Assembly: GCA_002189035.1 (NCBI GenBank)
Contig: NEEC01000017.1
Coordinates: forward strand, 2,170,001-2,234,000
From: Utricularia gibba
Taxonomy: Eukaryota; Streptophyta; Magnoliopsida; Lamiales; Lentibulariaceae
DNA length: 64,000 nt
Reading direction: 5' to 3'
The translations under genes were made by a program, and so were the position numbers. Shown one piece after another: positions 2,103-64,000 of the stretch. Position 1 is the stretch's first letter; every line of letters begins with the position of its first letter. Below the pieces are notes generated by a model. It ran no database searches and was not told the DNA's origin. It saw only the letters and a program-made list of their open reading frames with translations.

Positions 2103-3883
<1,781 letters not shown>

Positions 3884-24175: not shown

Positions 24176-24863
24176 GTGAATCTCCTGGGGTAGTGTATAA
24201 CTCACTCCTGCAAACCCCAAAATGGAAACGAATCCGATCTACTTAGCAGATCCCCTCCCACGGGAGAGAACAACCCAACTCGCTCTTGAACCACAGAAAC
24301 AGAGAGACCTAATCGATTCTTCCCTGGCAGTTTACCGTTAGTTTGCTATAATGATTTCTTTAAAAAAAAACACAAGTCTTGAACAAAGATGCAGACTTGG
24401 GTGGTCCGGAGCGGCCCATCTGGTAAACCGGCTCGGCCCATTACATCCATGCTTCGTGGCCTGTACAGAAAATGAGCTGGAGTCGGATCCGGCATCTACA
24501 GGCCCATAGTCCATTTTACTTAATTGAAATTAAAATTTTTAATTTAATGCTATAATTCGACAGCATATTCCTTATTTCCTAGGTAATTGATTATGGAGCA
24601 CATTTGGAAAATTTCATTAAATTGCATATTCATAATATATCATATTCTTCATTAAACAATATATAATACTTTCATTAATTTCATTCAAGATAGAATAAAT
24701 CTAATCATATATTATTAAATACAAAATTCGAAATTTGACATTTGGAATAACTAAAAATATCAAACTCTTATTATCATTTTTTTTAAAAAAAAAAAGACAT
24801 GATGATGGTCATGCATATAGTGTCGTAGAGGAACCCCTCCAGCAGTAGCAACATCCCTCTTGC
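24176..24863. other. Spacer upstream of CURT1C
   Basis: The first 350 bases carry several GGCCCA/GGCCCAT motifs (24413, 24437, 24502), consistent with a CURT1C promoter read leftwards. The rest is AT-rich with no gene. Confidence 0.5.
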
Positions 24864-25109
24864 TTACTCCTTCCCGACGGTTCCGGGACAAAAAGGCGGC
24901 GACCAACGGTCGGCGGCGACGATGCCGTTATTGTCTCCCGGCTGTGGATTCTGGTTATGGCAGTTGCTGGGAGCAGAACCGGGAATGGGCCCTTTAATCA
25001 AAGACCTCCTGAAGCCGATCTGGTCTGGAGCCATTCTGGCTTCCAGGGGTAGAGAGACCCACAGAAGGATGAGCGCCAGAGAAGCCAGAAAAGCACGAGA
25101 CGCAGCCAT
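24864..25109 (-). CDS. Small secreted peptide precursor, possibly IDA-like (copy 1)
   Basis: An intronless 81-codon gene. Residues 1-24 form a signal peptide (MAASRAFLASLALILLWVSL then PLEA). After a short basic stretch, GFRRSLIKG, comes GPIPGSAPSNCHN at residues 40-52. This resembles the PIPxSxPSxxHN core of IDA/IDL abscission peptides, although C replaces the usual R. Unlike classical IDA, a 29-residue tail follows the motif, ending in SPPFCPGTVGKE. The start at 25109 is preferred over the in-frame ATG at 25181 because a TATA box (25138-25144) lies between them, 28 bases upstream of 25109. Family assignment is inference; secretion is well supported. A diverged tandem copy lies 0.8 kb upstream. 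Confidence 0.6.
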   Translation of the reverse strand: MAASRAFLASLALILLWVSLPLEARMAPDQIGFRRSLIKGPIPGSAPSNCHNQNPQPGDNNGIVAADRWSPPFCPGTVGKE

Positions 25110-25136
25110 GCTCACTGCTACAAGCCTCCCTGAATC

Positions 25137-25175
25137 GTATATAAAGAGAGAGCTGGGAGTCCACAGTTTGCTTCT
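25137..25175 (-). promoter_or_regulatory. TATA box and conserved core promoter, peptide copy 1
   Basis: TAT-ATAA is followed (plus strand) by AGAGAGAGCTGGGAGT and TTTGCTTCT. The same ordered blocks occur at 25993-26030 upstream of the second copy, so the duplication included the promoter. The gene is read from the minus strand. Confidence 0.7.
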
Positions 25176-25750
25176 TAGCATCCAGAAATAGTAATTTTTG
25201 TAAATTCTGGATCCTAGTGTATTTTTATTGTGTGATTTAAATTACTTAGAATAGAATGGAACTTATTAATAAAATATATTTTCAGATTCGTCATTGTATT
25301 TAATTCAAATTACAAGTTTTAATTTAATTCAATCGAAGATGATTAATCCATAGGATAGTATATGATAGCTTCATCAAACAATATAGAGTATTTTATTTAT
25401 ATAGTGTATGTTAATTTTCCTAAGTTGACTATTTTATGGTACGTGTAATTTCTCTTTATTTATTTAATAAAATCGCTTTTCACCAATCGTATCTTCTACA
25501 TTTATTCACGTGCTCATATACTATTAGTCATAGTGTATGTTGATTTTCCAGAATTTTAATTGAATTAAAACTATTGAATCAATAATTTTAAAATACTGAA
25601 TACAATGGGAATAATTTTCAGTACTAATAATCAAACTCTTATTATTTTTTATTTTTAATAAACGAGATGATGCTGCTCAAGCAAATAGTATCCATAAGGA
25701 ACATTCCCCGCCGTTCACGATGCACACTCCGGCAACATCCTCCCTCCTGC

Positions 25751-25952
25751 TTACTTCTTCCCGGCGTTTTCGGGACACAGAGGCGGCGGCAGCGGACGGA
25801 TTTGGGGGCCCGGCCGTTGTGGTGTCCCGGATGTGGATGGCCCAAGCACTGGGAGCTGTAGTCGTCGTCTGGAACCATTCTGGCCTCGAGGGTGGAGAGA
25901 GGCACAGGAGGATGAGCACCAGAGCAGCCAGAAACGCACGGGAGGCGGCCAT
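25751..25952 (-). pseudogene. Tandem second copy of the small secreted peptide gene, frameshifted
   Basis: Starts MAASRAFLAALVLILL, nearly identical to copy 1, then leaves the shared frame inside CCACCC near 25889. The homologous LEARMVPD lies one frame over, and the shared C-terminal PPLCPENAGKK with its stop at 25751 lies in the third frame. The segment that codes the GPIPGSAPS motif in copy 1 is missing or unalignable. One extra C in each of two C runs (near 25889 and 25808) would give one open frame, so base-calling error cannot be excluded. In that frame the mature region would be different and Asp/Tyr/His-rich. It is called pseudogene provisionally. Confidence 0.55.
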
Positions 25953-25992
25953 GCTCCACCGCTAAATATCTGTCAAAAGACTCCGCGATTTG

Positions 25993-26030
25993 TATATAAA
26001 GAGAGAGCTGGGAGTGCACTATTTGCTTCT
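25993..26030 (-). promoter_or_regulatory. Conserved core promoter, peptide copy 2
   Basis: Same TATA plus AGAGAGAGCTGGGAGT and TTTGCTTCT order as copy 1, 41 bases upstream of the copy 2 ATG. Its conservation beside a disrupted coding region is notable. Confidence 0.65.
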
Positions 26031-27460
26031 TCAAACTCAGAAATGGTAATTTGGATAAATTAAGTGCGGATGGCTGTGTTTTTGGATGAATTAGAAATAT
26101 TGTTATGTGTCACGTATAATGAGAAAATTGGTTACCTATATTACAATTTTGTTAACTTAATGTGTAAAAGAATACATAATTGATATAATCCGTATATTTT
26201 TATTCATGATGTAAAATAAAATTAACTTTCATATTAGAATTAATTTTGAGATTGTAAAATTATTTTATGAAAGATGGATTTATGCTATATATTTAGTAGG
26301 TTAAATTATGAAAAGTAACAAATTACTTTTTTTTTTCCATTAACGAATCCCAATAATTTTATTGCATGCACAAAATGAATATGAAAATCAAAATAATTTG
26401 AAATAATAAATTGATGAAATGTAAAAATATAAAAATATTGTTAAGGTGTGTAAAATTGAATTATAATTTTTAATTAAATATGTATTTAAAAAATTGAATA
26501 TTTGTAAATTTAATGTCAAAATTTAAATTTTTTATTTGACTATCAAATATATAAAAATTAGATAAAATCAATTTAAATTCAAATAAGAGGCAAACCTCAT
26601 TGGCTTCTCCCTCACTATGAAAGCTAGAGGGATCGGAGGATTCAGCGAGCTACCGTCGACGTGTCGATCGATGTTCTACATGTCGTTCCGACGATCGTGT
26701 TTGTAGCGACTGCCGCCTGTTCTTCAGGTGCATCGGCTTTCTTTCTTTTCTTCTTCCTCTTCCTGTTCGACGAAATGCCGGATCCATCCTGAATTTTAAA
26801 GAAGAAGCTTCCCGAGGAAGCAAGGCTACACAGATGGGGAAATGAAAGGAACGGAACATGTTTGTACTGTTTTGGGGATTGTGTGATGTTAATTCTGGGT
26901 GGTATTAGTGTAACTAGGCATTCAAGGCAACAAGCGCTGTATCAGAAGCGAAACGGCATGCGCCACCACGTGAAACGACAAAACATTCAACAAAAGGAAA
27001 CATGTTGGGCCCACACATCCATGGAGGATCTCCTGGGTTCATTCAAATTTCAAAATTACCGTTTCATTGGCATTTTAAATTTCAATGATTTCTGTTAATC
27101 TCATCTTCCACGGGCAATTCCTTCATTTTGTTTTTGGGATTTTCTTCTTTCAATCCGTTGGTTATTGCTTTTTGCTCCACTCTCCGTCGGCTCCATGGTT
27201 GTGAAAACGACTCGTATCCTGAAGTTAAAGCTTCTTTCGACAGTTGCTTCCCGTTTGTTCCTGGAATCAACCCGCATAGTTTCTTGCTGTTCTCAATGAA
27301 AAAGATTGTTTCTTCGCCCTTTTTTAAATCGATTTCGAGTTAATCGCTCCACAGGGAAATTGGCTTGGCAGATCAGGGATAGTTTTTTAATTTTTTTTGT
27401 AAAAAAACTTGTCTTTCATCAGCACAGTTTGTGTTTCCCTTCTGGGTGGTTGGCGAGTCA
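26031..27460. other. AT-rich spacer before KIN-13B
   Basis: 26040-26600 is very AT-rich. 26600-26860 is GC-richer and on the minus strand could encode a Lys/Arg-rich tail (NRKRKKKRKKADAPEEQ) after an AG at about 26793, but no start or partner exon was found. 27100-27460 probably holds the KIN-13B promoter and leader. Confidence 0.45.
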
Positions 27461-47770: not shown

Positions 47771-49228
47771 TCATGGGGTCGGAGTGGTTGCCTCTCCATC
47801 GATCGGTGTCGGCTGCCGGAAGGGGAAATCCACTTCCCGGAGTTGAAGAAGCAAGTACAGCAAAATCCCACAGACAAATCCCAAAGCGGCGCTCGAACCG
47901 GTCAGCGAAATGGCGGCGGATACGAGCATAACGAATGCATCTTCTTTGGTGTTCATGTCTCTTGCCGCGGCTGCCAGCTCGATTCCGGCGAATAAAAGTA
48001 GAACGCCGAGGATTCCCACGGGGAAGCTAGCCAGGATACCCGCGAACGAATTCCCGATGAGTAGTGCGAGAGTCAGCTTGGCCAAACCGAGAAAACCCAC
48101 CGACAAACCACTCCTGCCGCCGAACCGGTACTGCCCTGCTAAACCGCCGGCGCCATGGCAAACCGGCATCGCTCCAAACCAACAGCCCACGAGATTCATT
48201 ATACCGACGCTAATAGAAACTTCTGCGGCAGAGAGCTCCGTCCCCGGAAACAGATCATCGGAGAGCTTACACACTGCAATAACAGAATTCAACACGGAGA
48301 GGGGGATTTGGGGCACAGCTCCCCGCAAGAAGCCTACTTTGAAATCATCCCAAGTGATTTTGAGAACGTGGAATTTCGAGGGACCGAACTTTATGCCACT
48401 GGCAATGGATGGGTCTCGTATGAAACAAAGAATGAAGCCAAGCAAGAAAACGATAAGGGCCGAGGGAATTGCGGATAGAAATCTTCGCCGTCGCTGTACA
48501 CGTTGCTCTCTGAGAGGGATGGTTTCGGCGGCACAGCATGCTCCACCATCGCCAGCGCCGGTGGTCAAGACGAGGAAGACGAAGGAGGAAAGGGCGAGAA
48601 TAAGGCCGTCCAACCCCAGCCAGGGGCGTTGAACGGTAGTTTTTGAAGCAGATGTTGTGGTGAAATCCTGAATATACCGGATGTATTTGATGGCGGAGAA
48701 AGCAAATTGAAGACCCTGAAACGGAAAAATTGCAATCGTACCAGTAACGAACTCCAGATCCATTTAAGAATAAACATCACGCACCTGCGATAATTGAACG
48801 CCGCGGACGACCGAGCGAGGGAGGAATCGGTAGAGAAGGGTCATGAGGCCGGTGGCACCGAGGAGGAGGAGAACACCGGCGGTGGATATACCAGCAGCGG
48901 CGATCTGGGCCACCGTCAGATGAGGCGTCTCTGTGACAGCAACAGCGGCGATGGATTTCATAGGTTGTACAGGCATAGGCATGCCGAATATCGCGCCGGT
49001 GATGATGTTATAGATGCCGGTGAAAATGAGAGTGGTGGAGAGATCGAGATGGGAGACGAGACTGAGGGCTAAAACTATAGGGATGAAGGTCCCGAGATCT
49101 CCGACCGCACCGCTCATCTCTGAAAATAAGGAGCTCTTCAGACGGAAAGAGTTACCGATACGGTGGCCGCAATCATGGAGACGCCGCCTGAGGAGCGGAA
49201 CGGCGTTTTCTGGCGATCCTTCCGCCAT
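47771..49228 (-). CDS. MOT2: Molybdate transporter MOT2-like
   Basis: Member of the sulfate-transporter-like molybdate carriers; Arabidopsis MOT2 exports molybdate from the vacuole. Two exons, 48785-49228 and 47771-48715, give 462 aa. About ten hydrophobic helices; GAVGDLGTFIPIVLALS, GMPMPVQPMKSIAAVA, FRPSVVRGVQ-like LPRSVVRGVQLSQ and PVCHGAGGLAGQYRFGGR are family motifs. The ATG at 49228 is used because the codon before it in frame is GTG. The VAS1 stop lies only 144 bp away, tail to tail. Confidence 0.92.
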
Positions 49229-61910: not shown

Positions 61911-64000
61911 TTATGTCTGCAACATGTAGTTCCTGGTTCGTGTACAGAAAAAGGAGCCAACAACTATGGCAAAGAAACTAATGGATGCACTGAGGCAGAA
62001 AACTCCCGATGATAATGAATTGCTTTGAAGCTCATAATCTTCTATCATCTTCCCGCTGCATTCTCCAGTAGTGTTCTCCAAACACATCCCTGGATTTCCT
62101 ACGAGGGCGGTGGGGAACCTTGTGAACCCTTGCCCAATCGGAACTACACCTGAAAGGCAGTTAAATGACAGATTCAAGAGCACCAAGGTTCCAAGGCTCA
62201 GATTGTTGTCTTCAACAGGGCCAGAGAACAAATTGTGCGACAAATCAAGGAACCTAAGACTCTGCATCTTACTGAACTCCCCGGGAAGTCTTCCGGACAG
62301 AAAGTTGTAAGACAGGTTCAGGTACTCGAGGCCTGGCCATCTCAAAAGTCCTGGAGGTATTTCACCGAACATCGAGTTATCAGAGATATCAACTCCGATT
62401 ACAGTTGAGAGCTTGTAATTGAAGATCAGCTCATGTTCATCGGAGATGGTCACAGAAATCTGTATCTTTGAATCAGTAGAAGGGGGAAAGAGGCTAAATT
62501 CATGAGCTCCGGAAATGTGGTTTAAGTTCTGAGACACATCGAAGTTGGTTGCTGGCAAGTACCCGGTGAAGTTGTTGGCTGAAAGATCGATTGTTTGGAG
62601 GGATTCAAATGTGAAAAGCCAGCCAGGAACAGCCCCACTGAATTTGTTGTGTGAAAGAGAGAGTGACCGAAGTTTAGACCACTTCGTCACAGCGTCATTA
62701 AGGGTGCCTGAGAGATTGTTAAAGCTCAAATCCACAACCTCCAGAGACTTGCATCCTGCAAAGGTGAGAGGGATCTCCCCTGAAATCTGGTTGTTACTCA
62801 AGTCCAAGATTTGCAAACTATCCAGTGCATCAAGCTCCGGAGGAATCTCTGCCGACAGCTGGTTATTGTTCAGCTTCAACGCTAGCAACTGAAAGCAGCC
62901 AACAATTGTTGAAGGTACAGAGCCTGATAATGAGTTGTATGAAAGATCAATCACTTGAAGATAGTTCATATTTCCAATCCCCTCTGGTATCACGCCCGTC
63001 AGATGATTATTTGACAGAAGCAAAGCTTCTAGACTCTTCAACTCTGTCAAACCTGAAGGAATATCACCTGTAAGCTGGTTGTTTGACAGGTCAAGGAGCA
63101 GAAGGCCGGATTTTTCAGGCGCCCCAACAAATGCTCTCGGAATTCTTCCTGTCAGGTGATTGAAACTCAAATCCAAGCCCAGCAATGTCTCCGAGAGCAC
63201 CAATCTCGGAGAAATACCGTATTCTAGCTCATTTCTTGACAAGTTGAGCAACCTCAAGGAACCGCACCTAGAAATGCAAGATGGGATTCCTCCCATGATG
63301 GAGTTATTCGCCAGATTGAGCACCGAAAGATGCTCCGACGATGCCTGGAAACATGGTAGCGTTCCAGATAATGCATTGGATTCAAGGTTCAGATGCACCA
63401 GAGGCTGATGAAAGTCACCTAGAATCCCAGTGATAAGATTGTGGGATAAATCCAAGAAACGTAGCGATGTGCCAGCATACAAGCTCACCGGAATCTGCCC
63501 ATAAAAGCCATTGAATCCCAGATTCAGTCTCTGAAGCTTCCTCGAGAAATCGCCAATCCAAGTAGGCACTTGTCCAGTAAGCTTGTTATGACCAAGATCA
63601 AGGTCTGTCAACTCGTCAAGTTTCAATATGGGATGTGGGAATTCACCTCCTATTGCATTGTAACTGAGGTCCAAGATTCTGAGGTTCCTCAGCTGAGTGA
63701 AGCACGACGGAAGGGAGCCATTGAAGGCGTTGTGCGATAAAATTAGGGTTTCGAGAAGGGAAAGTGTGCAAAGAGAGTCCCCGGAAATAGGGCCAGACAA
63801 GGCGAAAGCAGTGAGATTAAGAGCAACCACCCGGTTGTTAAGCGGCGAGAGTGTGACGCCCGCCCATTCTGCGGCGTCGTCGTCACGGTTCCAGCTCGAT
63901 AACGTGTGCAGAGGGTCCTGTAGATGAGATTTGAAGCTCCGAAGTGCCGCCTTCTCGTCTGGGTGAAGGCGAAAGCCTCTCACGAGACCCGTCTCAGACA
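61911..64000 (-). CDS. CLV2: Receptor-like protein CLAVATA2 (5' end outside window)
   Basis: Leucine-rich-repeat receptor-like protein that pairs with CORYNE to perceive CLE peptides in the shoot meristem. The visible 690-plus codons are intronless and open to the right edge, so the signal peptide and start lie beyond 64000 (frame continues as SETGLVRGF). LRR N-cap region (DEKAALRSFKSHLQ, Cys-poor), then about 20 plant-type LRRs (DLSYNxxxGxxP). The island domain near ATNFDVSQNLNHISG and HELIFNYKLS is followed by more LRRs, a paired-Cys C-cap (GMCLEN...GECSG), one transmembrane helix and a short tail ending NYMLQT. There is no kinase domain. Motifs such as QPLVHLNLESNALSGTLPCF match CLV2. Lies beside TGD3, as in Arabidopsis. 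Confidence 0.92.
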   Translation of the reverse strand, partial: SETGLVRGFRLHPDEKAALRSFKSHLQDPLHTLSSWNRDDDAAEWAGVTLSPLNNRVVALNLTAFALSGPISGDSLCTLSLLETLILSHNAFNGSLPSCFTQLRNLRILDLSYNAIGGEFPHPILKLDELTDLDLGHNKLTGQVPTWIGDFSRKLQRLNLGFNGFYGQIPVSLYAGTSLRFLDLSHNLITGILGDFHQPLVHLNLESNALSGTLPCFQASSEHLSVLNLANNSIMGGIPSCISRCGSLRLLNLSRNELEYGISPRLVLSETLLGLDLSFNHLTGRIPRAFVGAPEKSGLLLLDLSNNQLTGDIPSGLTELKSLEALLLSNNHLTGVIPEGIGNMNYLQVIDLSYNSLSGSVPSTIVGCFQLLALKLNNNQLSAEIPPELDALDSLQILDLSNNQISGEIPLTFAGCKSLEVVDLSFNNLSGTLNDAVTKWSKLRSLSLSHNKFSGAVPGWLFTFESLQTIDLSANNFTGYLPATNFDVSQNLNHISGAHEFSLFPPSTDSKIQISVTISDEHELIFNYKLSTVIGVDISDNSMFGEIPPGLLRWPGLEYLNLSYNFLSGRLPGEFSKMQSLRFLDLSHNLFSGPVEDNNLSLGTLVLLNLSFNCLSGVVPIGQGFTRFPTALVGNPGMCLENTTGECSGKMIEDYELQSNSLSSGVFCLSASISFFAIVVGSFFCTRTRNYMLQT

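Follow-up and report, generated by a model that had tools for sequence, protein, structure and literature searches.

Two small adjacent genes in Utricularia gibba, lying in a window of 64,000 nucleotides (contig NEEC01000017.1, positions 2,170,001 to 2,234,000), raise the question of what kind of signalling peptide they encode and whether the pair has kept its delivery parts while exchanging its core, as a first-pass annotation had proposed. The features needed for an answer are the following, with positions counted within the window:

24512..26061, strand not assigned: whole tandem duplication, with units at ~24512-25206 and ~25292-26061 and ordered repeats D1-D7
24864..25109, minus strand: complete coding sequence of copy 1, an uninterrupted open reading frame of 81 aa, MAASRAFLASLALILLWVSLPLEARMAPDQIGFRRSLIKGPIPGSAPSNCHNQNPQPGDNNGIVAADRWSPPFCPGTVGKE
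25035..25109, minus strand: signal peptide region of copy 1, residues 1-24/25, with a hydrophobic 11-mer and an Arg after LEA
24954..24992, minus strand: IDA/CTNIP-like core of copy 1, GPIPGSAPSNCHN, residues 40-52, including the first Cys, C50
24867..24902, minus strand: C-terminal block SPPFCPGTVGKE of copy 1, with the second Cys, C74; common to copy 2 (repeat D3)
25115..25206, minus strand: putative core promoter block of copy 1, with TATATA ~34 nt 5' of the ATG (repeat D1; 72/92 identity to copy 2)
25751..25952, minus strand: homologous coding sequence of copy 2, 202 nt as assembled, read frame by frame as MAASRAFLAALVLILLCLSPP X EARMVPDDDYSSQCLGHPHPGHHNGRAP X IRPLPPPLCPENAGKK, where X is a lesion
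25970..26061, minus strand: putative core promoter block of copy 2 (repeat D1)

The two copies arose by a tandem duplication of an ordinary type (~700-890 bp), which includes a promoter block of 92 nt. Direct repeats occur in the same order in both units at a spacing of 722-887 bp, with both flanks included. The idea that the delivery parts alone were duplicated therefore fails, since the ordered repeats run from ~24512-25206 to 25292-26061 and take in the downstream flank. The best-kept parts are the GC-rich coding and core-promoter stretches. Searching the genome with the DNA and protein of copy 1 returned the two copies only.

Several elements of the initial description are borne out. Both genes lie on the minus strand, with copy 2 located 5' of copy 1, and copy 1 is an intact frame. 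The signal peptides are alike (MAASRAFLASLALILLWVSLP in copy 1, MAASRAFLAALVLILLCLSPP in copy 2), and both copies end in PP(F/L)CP...GK(E/K) followed by the same stop. The putative promoter block is 78% identical between the copies and contains a 24-nt identical run over CTCCCAGCTCTCTCTTTATATA, in the TATA region. Assuming 75% identity per site, such a run has P ~0.02, which gives modest support to a core promoter that is probably under constraint. The distance of the TATA box from the copy 1 ATG (~34 nt) implies a very short leader.

The copy 1 precursor has the anatomy of a putatively secreted signalling peptide, as had been suggested, with a signal peptide and an IDA-like core. Its N-terminal hydrophobic 11-mer has a mean of 2.8 on the Kyte-Doolittle scale, with a putative cleavage site behind it and R25 directly after the signal peptide. 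SAPS occupies residues 45-48, 23 residues separate the cysteines C50 and C74, and the core is followed by NCHN and a tail of 29 residues. No relevant Pfam family was matched by either copy.

The placement of copy 1 in the IDA/CTNIP superfamily is well supported by sequence comparison. The core GPIPGSAPSNCHN is identical to PIPPSAPSKRHN at 9 of 12 positions, a score equalled by none of 200,000 shuffles, and it is the sole match to PIPxSxPSxxHN in the genome. The best CTNIP and the best IDA reference were each equalled by 2 of 40,000 shuffles of copy 1, and AtIDA by 10 of 40,000, while the PIP, CEP, CLE, RGF and SCOOP cores scored at chance. PIP, CEP, CLE and SCOOP identities were set aside for want of core similarity. 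Since the IDA and CTNIP scores are equal, defining features must separate the two families.

Several of these features point towards the CTNIP/SCREW peptides (Arabidopsis CTNIP1-5; ligands of HSL3/NUT; PDB 9w1s_C and 9wum_B). The precursor is short (81 aa, within the <150 aa of this group) and begins with a signal peptide. A phmmer search of the PDB gave 9w1s_C as the second match for copy 1, with an E-value of 0.52 that is not significant alone; queries with the 9w1s_C peptide and with Arabidopsis HSL3 identified 9w1s and 9wum as HSL3 (AT5G25930) with CTNIP peptides. When copy 1 and CTNIP are aligned (APDQIGF-RRSLIKGPIPGSAPSNCHN / AADEIRFVFQALQRGPVSGSGPNGCTN), the first Cys and CxN are in register. 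The Cys after SAPSN takes the register of CTNIP GSGPNGC, with the second Cys further on, and the residues GP..GS.P..C.N, which correspond to a (K/R)GPxxGSxPxxCxN core, match 9w1s_C in register; the T, I and P of the CTNIP motif are not kept. The second Cys lies near the C-terminus with a Gly one residue on (CPG / CHG). Furthermore, adjacent gene pairs also occur, by locus number, among the Arabidopsis genes (AT1G06135/06137 and AT2G31335/31345).

In CTNIP4 activity and receptor binding depend on both cysteines, and confident CTNIPs carry two C-terminal cysteines spaced by 9-11 residues (PMC9191895). Copy 1 differs in having 23 residues in this interval, CHNQNP in place of CTNIP, and a longer tail (CPGTVGKE). 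A protein query with a canonical CTNIP found no match in the genome; the GCTN(x)P pattern matched about as often as its reversed control, and none of the frames read was a peptide precursor.

The receptor inventory of the genome bears on the same question. The HSL3 query found three loci at 47-55% identity, and in a maximum-likelihood tree three genes cluster with AtHSL3 (100/100) and one with AtHSL1 (100/98). The best match to the HAE and HSL2 queries was one and the same gene, identified as HSL1 (it scores 821 bits against HSL1 versus 701 against HAE). This HSL1 orthologue is 58% identical to HAE and 45% to HSL2, and the Arabidopsis values are 58% for HAE-HSL1 and 45% for HAE-HSL2 (PMC4627355); the equal values therefore indicate identity at the level of paralogues, not orthologues. 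Of the three receptor queries, those for HSL3 and HAE were checked against PDB sequences. No HAE or HSL2 orthologue was among the genome matches, and none of the genes clusters with HAE or HSL2 in the tree, in a genome that may be incomplete. With the same proviso, it is possible that the abscission ligand-receptor module (IDA, HAE/HSL2) has been lost, HSL1 and HSL3 being present. Two of the three HSL3-clade genes are near-identical duplicates on one contig, at 1.41 and 1.97 Mb.

Taken together, the locus is best read as a tandemly duplicated small secreted-peptide gene of the IDA/CTNIP superfamily, most likely encoding a divergent CTNIP/SCREW-type ligand of HSL3, a reading to which we give about an even chance. 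It is favoured because the first Cys and CxN stand in the CTNIP register and two C-terminal Cys codons persist in each copy, because three HSL3 genes and one HSL1 gene were found with no HAE/HSL2 or canonical IDA detected, and because the 9w1s_C match is a CTNIP peptide bound to HSL3. Against it stand the Cys spacing of 23, a CTNIP motif reduced to C-x-N, the equal scores of the IDA references, the E-value of that match, the empty Pfam search, and a copy 2 that matches neither family.

A mechanism can be modelled by analogy on CTNIP4-HSL3-BAK1. The precursor would enter the secretory pathway, with the signal peptide cut after LEA, and processing would release a C-terminal fragment that begins near KGPIPGSAP and carries both cysteines. 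This fragment is predicted to bind the LRR ectodomain of HSL3 in a Cys-dependent manner. HSL3 would then recruit a SERK/BAK1 co-receptor, leading to a Ca2+/MAPK/ROS output and a response in growth or to stress. Local duplication gave rise to copy 2, which kept the promoter, the signal peptide, both Cys codons and the C-terminus and lost ~14 codons that include GPIPGSAP. Its activity at the original receptor is probably altered or nil, or its specificity changed, because the GPIPGSAP half of the core is gone and neither family is matched by it in shuffle scores.

How far the second copy has diverged can be read from the alignment in homologous frames. The alignment first covers the signal peptide and EARM(A/V)PD; copy 1 then has ~14 extra codons (QIGFRRSLIKGPIPG...) around GPIPGSAP, and copy 2 continues with DDY.... 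Past the gap, the Cys, P.PG..NG and PP.CP...GK align again, with two Cys codons kept in each copy. The loss of the IDA-like core from copy 2 is thus confirmed, whereas the statement that the central region differs completely goes too far: beside the absent codons stand the Cys, PxPGxxNG, second Cys and C-terminus, all of which align. In sequence terms, the centre of copy 2 is shortened and diverged relative to copy 1, not unrelated to it.

Substitution rates between the two copies (NG86) were dN 0.11 and dS 0.31 in the signal-peptide part (dN/dS ~0.35), dN 0.59 and dS 0.35 in the remaining aligned part, where the alignment is partly uncertain, and dN ~0.22-0.23 and dS ~0.13-0.20 in the two well-aligned non-signal blocks. 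The contrast between the signal peptide and the whole remainder is borderline (Fisher P ~0.05), and P is 0.19 when only the well-aligned blocks are used. Small as these numbers are, they suggest constraint on the signal peptide and near-neutral or faster change elsewhere.

From the ATG to the homologous TAA, the 202 nt of copy 2 are out of frame as assembled, one base being short at each of two C runs, CCACCCTCGAGG and GGGCCCCCAAATCC. As a control, frame breaks were studied in four conserved genes, one in the window (threonine synthase) and three outside it that encode HSL3-type receptors. Adding a single base to a C or G run of 3-5 restored the frame at all six breaks. The error rate is ~0.033 per C/G run of at least 3, so that 0.30 errors are expected in copy 2, and two or more would occur with P ~0.036. 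Because the breaks in the conserved genes carry the same signature without exception, undercalling in C runs, as first suggested for copy 2, is likelier than pseudogenisation. Such errors can make short peptide genes of this assembly look like pseudogenes.

The threonine synthase frame (window 2336-3607, minus strand) stops early near 2350 at MFICPTLV*, and the conserved protein resumes in the next frame given one more base in the C4 run of TGCCCCAC, so that a housekeeping gene, too, apparently carries an assembly error. Each of the three HSL3-clade genes has one or two single-base frame breaks in C/G runs. A frame break at 48.76 kb in a MOT1-type molybdate transporter gene was also considered as a sequencing error and ruled out, the frame being split there by a short GT..AG intron of ~57 nt (window 48718-48785, minus strand).

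One rival applies to copy 2 alone and can be held together with the preferred explanation of copy 1. It holds that copy 2 is a true pseudogene, in which real 1-bp deletions in C runs and the loss of the core motif have left no product, and it is a tentative but substantial possibility. Two lesions per 202 nt are somewhat above the error rate, and dN is about equal to dS or higher outside the signal peptide. However, both lesions match the assembly-error signature exactly, the homologous frames contain no in-frame stop, the large indel is in frame, the signal peptide shows constraint, and the core promoter is kept.

Next comes the proposal that copy 1 is a divergent IDL (IDA-like) peptide, of the same type as the Cys-containing Solanaceae peptides annotated as IDA (SlycIDA6/7), and acts on an HAE/HSL-type receptor, which is unlikely. 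It has in its favour the 9/12 identity of PIPGSAPSNCHN to PIPPSAPSKRHN, together with a KG-PIPxSAPSxxHN core, a similar precursor length, and two traits of IDL/PIP precursors, namely the S(A/G)PS core and an Arg following the signal peptide. IDA and IDL peptides, the ligands of HAE/HSL2, have been defined (PMC4526919) by an S(G/A/V)PS core, an Arg after the signal peptide, (R/K)(R/K)HN and a tail no longer than 13 residues. Copy 1 shows the first two and departs from the others, with Asn-Cys for Lys-Arg (NCHN), Gly for the Pro at the Hyp position and a tail of 29 residues, where Arabidopsis IDLs have no more than 13. The peptide is also not Cys-poor, as its two Cys codons are kept in both copies, and no HAE/HSL2 orthologue was detected. 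The earlier label 'IDA-like' stands for the core; it is weakened by these departures and by a CTNIP/SCREW match that is as good. No canonical IDA core was detected in the genome by pattern and protein searches, the empty protein search proving little.

In the available parts of PMC6971993 and PMC12903503, the Cys-containing IDA-likes of Solanaceae (SlycIDA6, SlycIDA7 and StubIDA1) are of a PSCRSS type, and SlycIDA6 and SlycIDA7 (cores PIPPSAPSCRSS and PLPPSAPSCRSS) form a tandem pair on tomato chromosome 9. The same parts describe SlIDA8 as salt-induced in tomato and give a tomato IDA-family motif, GTPPSCPMAQFEIVDVVESFT, with PPSCP, without assigning it to a named gene. This motif matches SPPFCP of copy 1, a point for the IDL proposal that the lack of an assignment tempers. 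Compared by these printed motifs, the Solanaceae peptides resemble copy 1 in a PIPPSAPS core followed by a Cys, in a length of 91-92 aa, in their tandem pairing and in the PPSCP motif of the family; they differ in placing the Cys one residue earlier (SAPSC versus SAPSNC) and in having RSS, not HN. The PSCRSS members seem intermediate, and on this partial record we suspect that they and copy 1 form one group. The tomato-type pattern PxxxSxPSC had two matches in the U. gibba genome, both in short random frames.

The boundary between CTNIP and IDA-like peptides is blurred. Copy 1 combines an IDA-like core with a Cys in the CTNIP register and a lengthened Cys loop, in a plant that has HSL3 and no detected HAE/HSL2, and so offers a case for studying the receptor choice of hybrids. 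CTNIP peptides are poorly annotated, more than 40% of those reported by Rhodes et al. having lacked annotation.

It is improbable that the two genes are a neofunctionalised pair in which the promoter, signal peptide and Cys scaffold were kept and the receptor-binding core was swapped, making copy 2 (DDDYSSQCLGHPHPGHHNG) a new, perhaps tyrosine-sulphated, ligand. The core would have been replaced in frame on a conserved scaffold, and DDDY in copy 2 sets a Tyr next to acidic residues, as at sulphation sites of plant peptides. Against this, the difference is mostly a deletion, only two copies are compared, and the frame of copy 2 hinges on two putative bases. A weak similarity of copy 2 to RGF1 (867 of 40,000 shuffles) reflects His/Pro composition and is not significant after multiple tests, so that an RGF/GLV reading (DY...PGHHN) was dropped. 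A broader scenario, in which the IDA-HAE/HSL2 module was lost, HSL3 multiplied, and a duplicated HSL3 ligand with a replaced core gave different specificities for the HSL3 paralogues while promoter, signal peptide and Cys scaffold were kept, is likewise a long shot.

In precursor families of this kind, the signal and motif are generally kept and the remainder varies. The suggestion of a new family principle, keeping delivery parts and swapping the core, is not borne out by the signal-peptide contrast, which is borderline and based on two copies. The peptide pair is real, small and of a known type, with a probably fast-changing core, and its main interest lies in the hybrid IDA/CTNIP anatomy and the receptor inventory. 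That the frames are chance products of a GC-rich island with no gene is very improbable: signal-like hydrophobic starts are not rare in the window (23/311 ATG frames) and no Pfam family was matched, but the signal peptide, superfamily core, Cys pair and conserved TATA block occur together, and the signal peptide is constrained between the duplicates.

The window itself is plant nuclear genome, with kinesin, MOT1-type transporter, mitochondrial carrier, HSP70, LRR and PLP-enzyme genes. Near its end, at 61911-63998 on the minus strand, lies an LRR-rich open frame of 695 codons that ends in a hydrophobic C-terminal segment, lacks a kinase and resembles receptor-like proteins of the CLV2 type.
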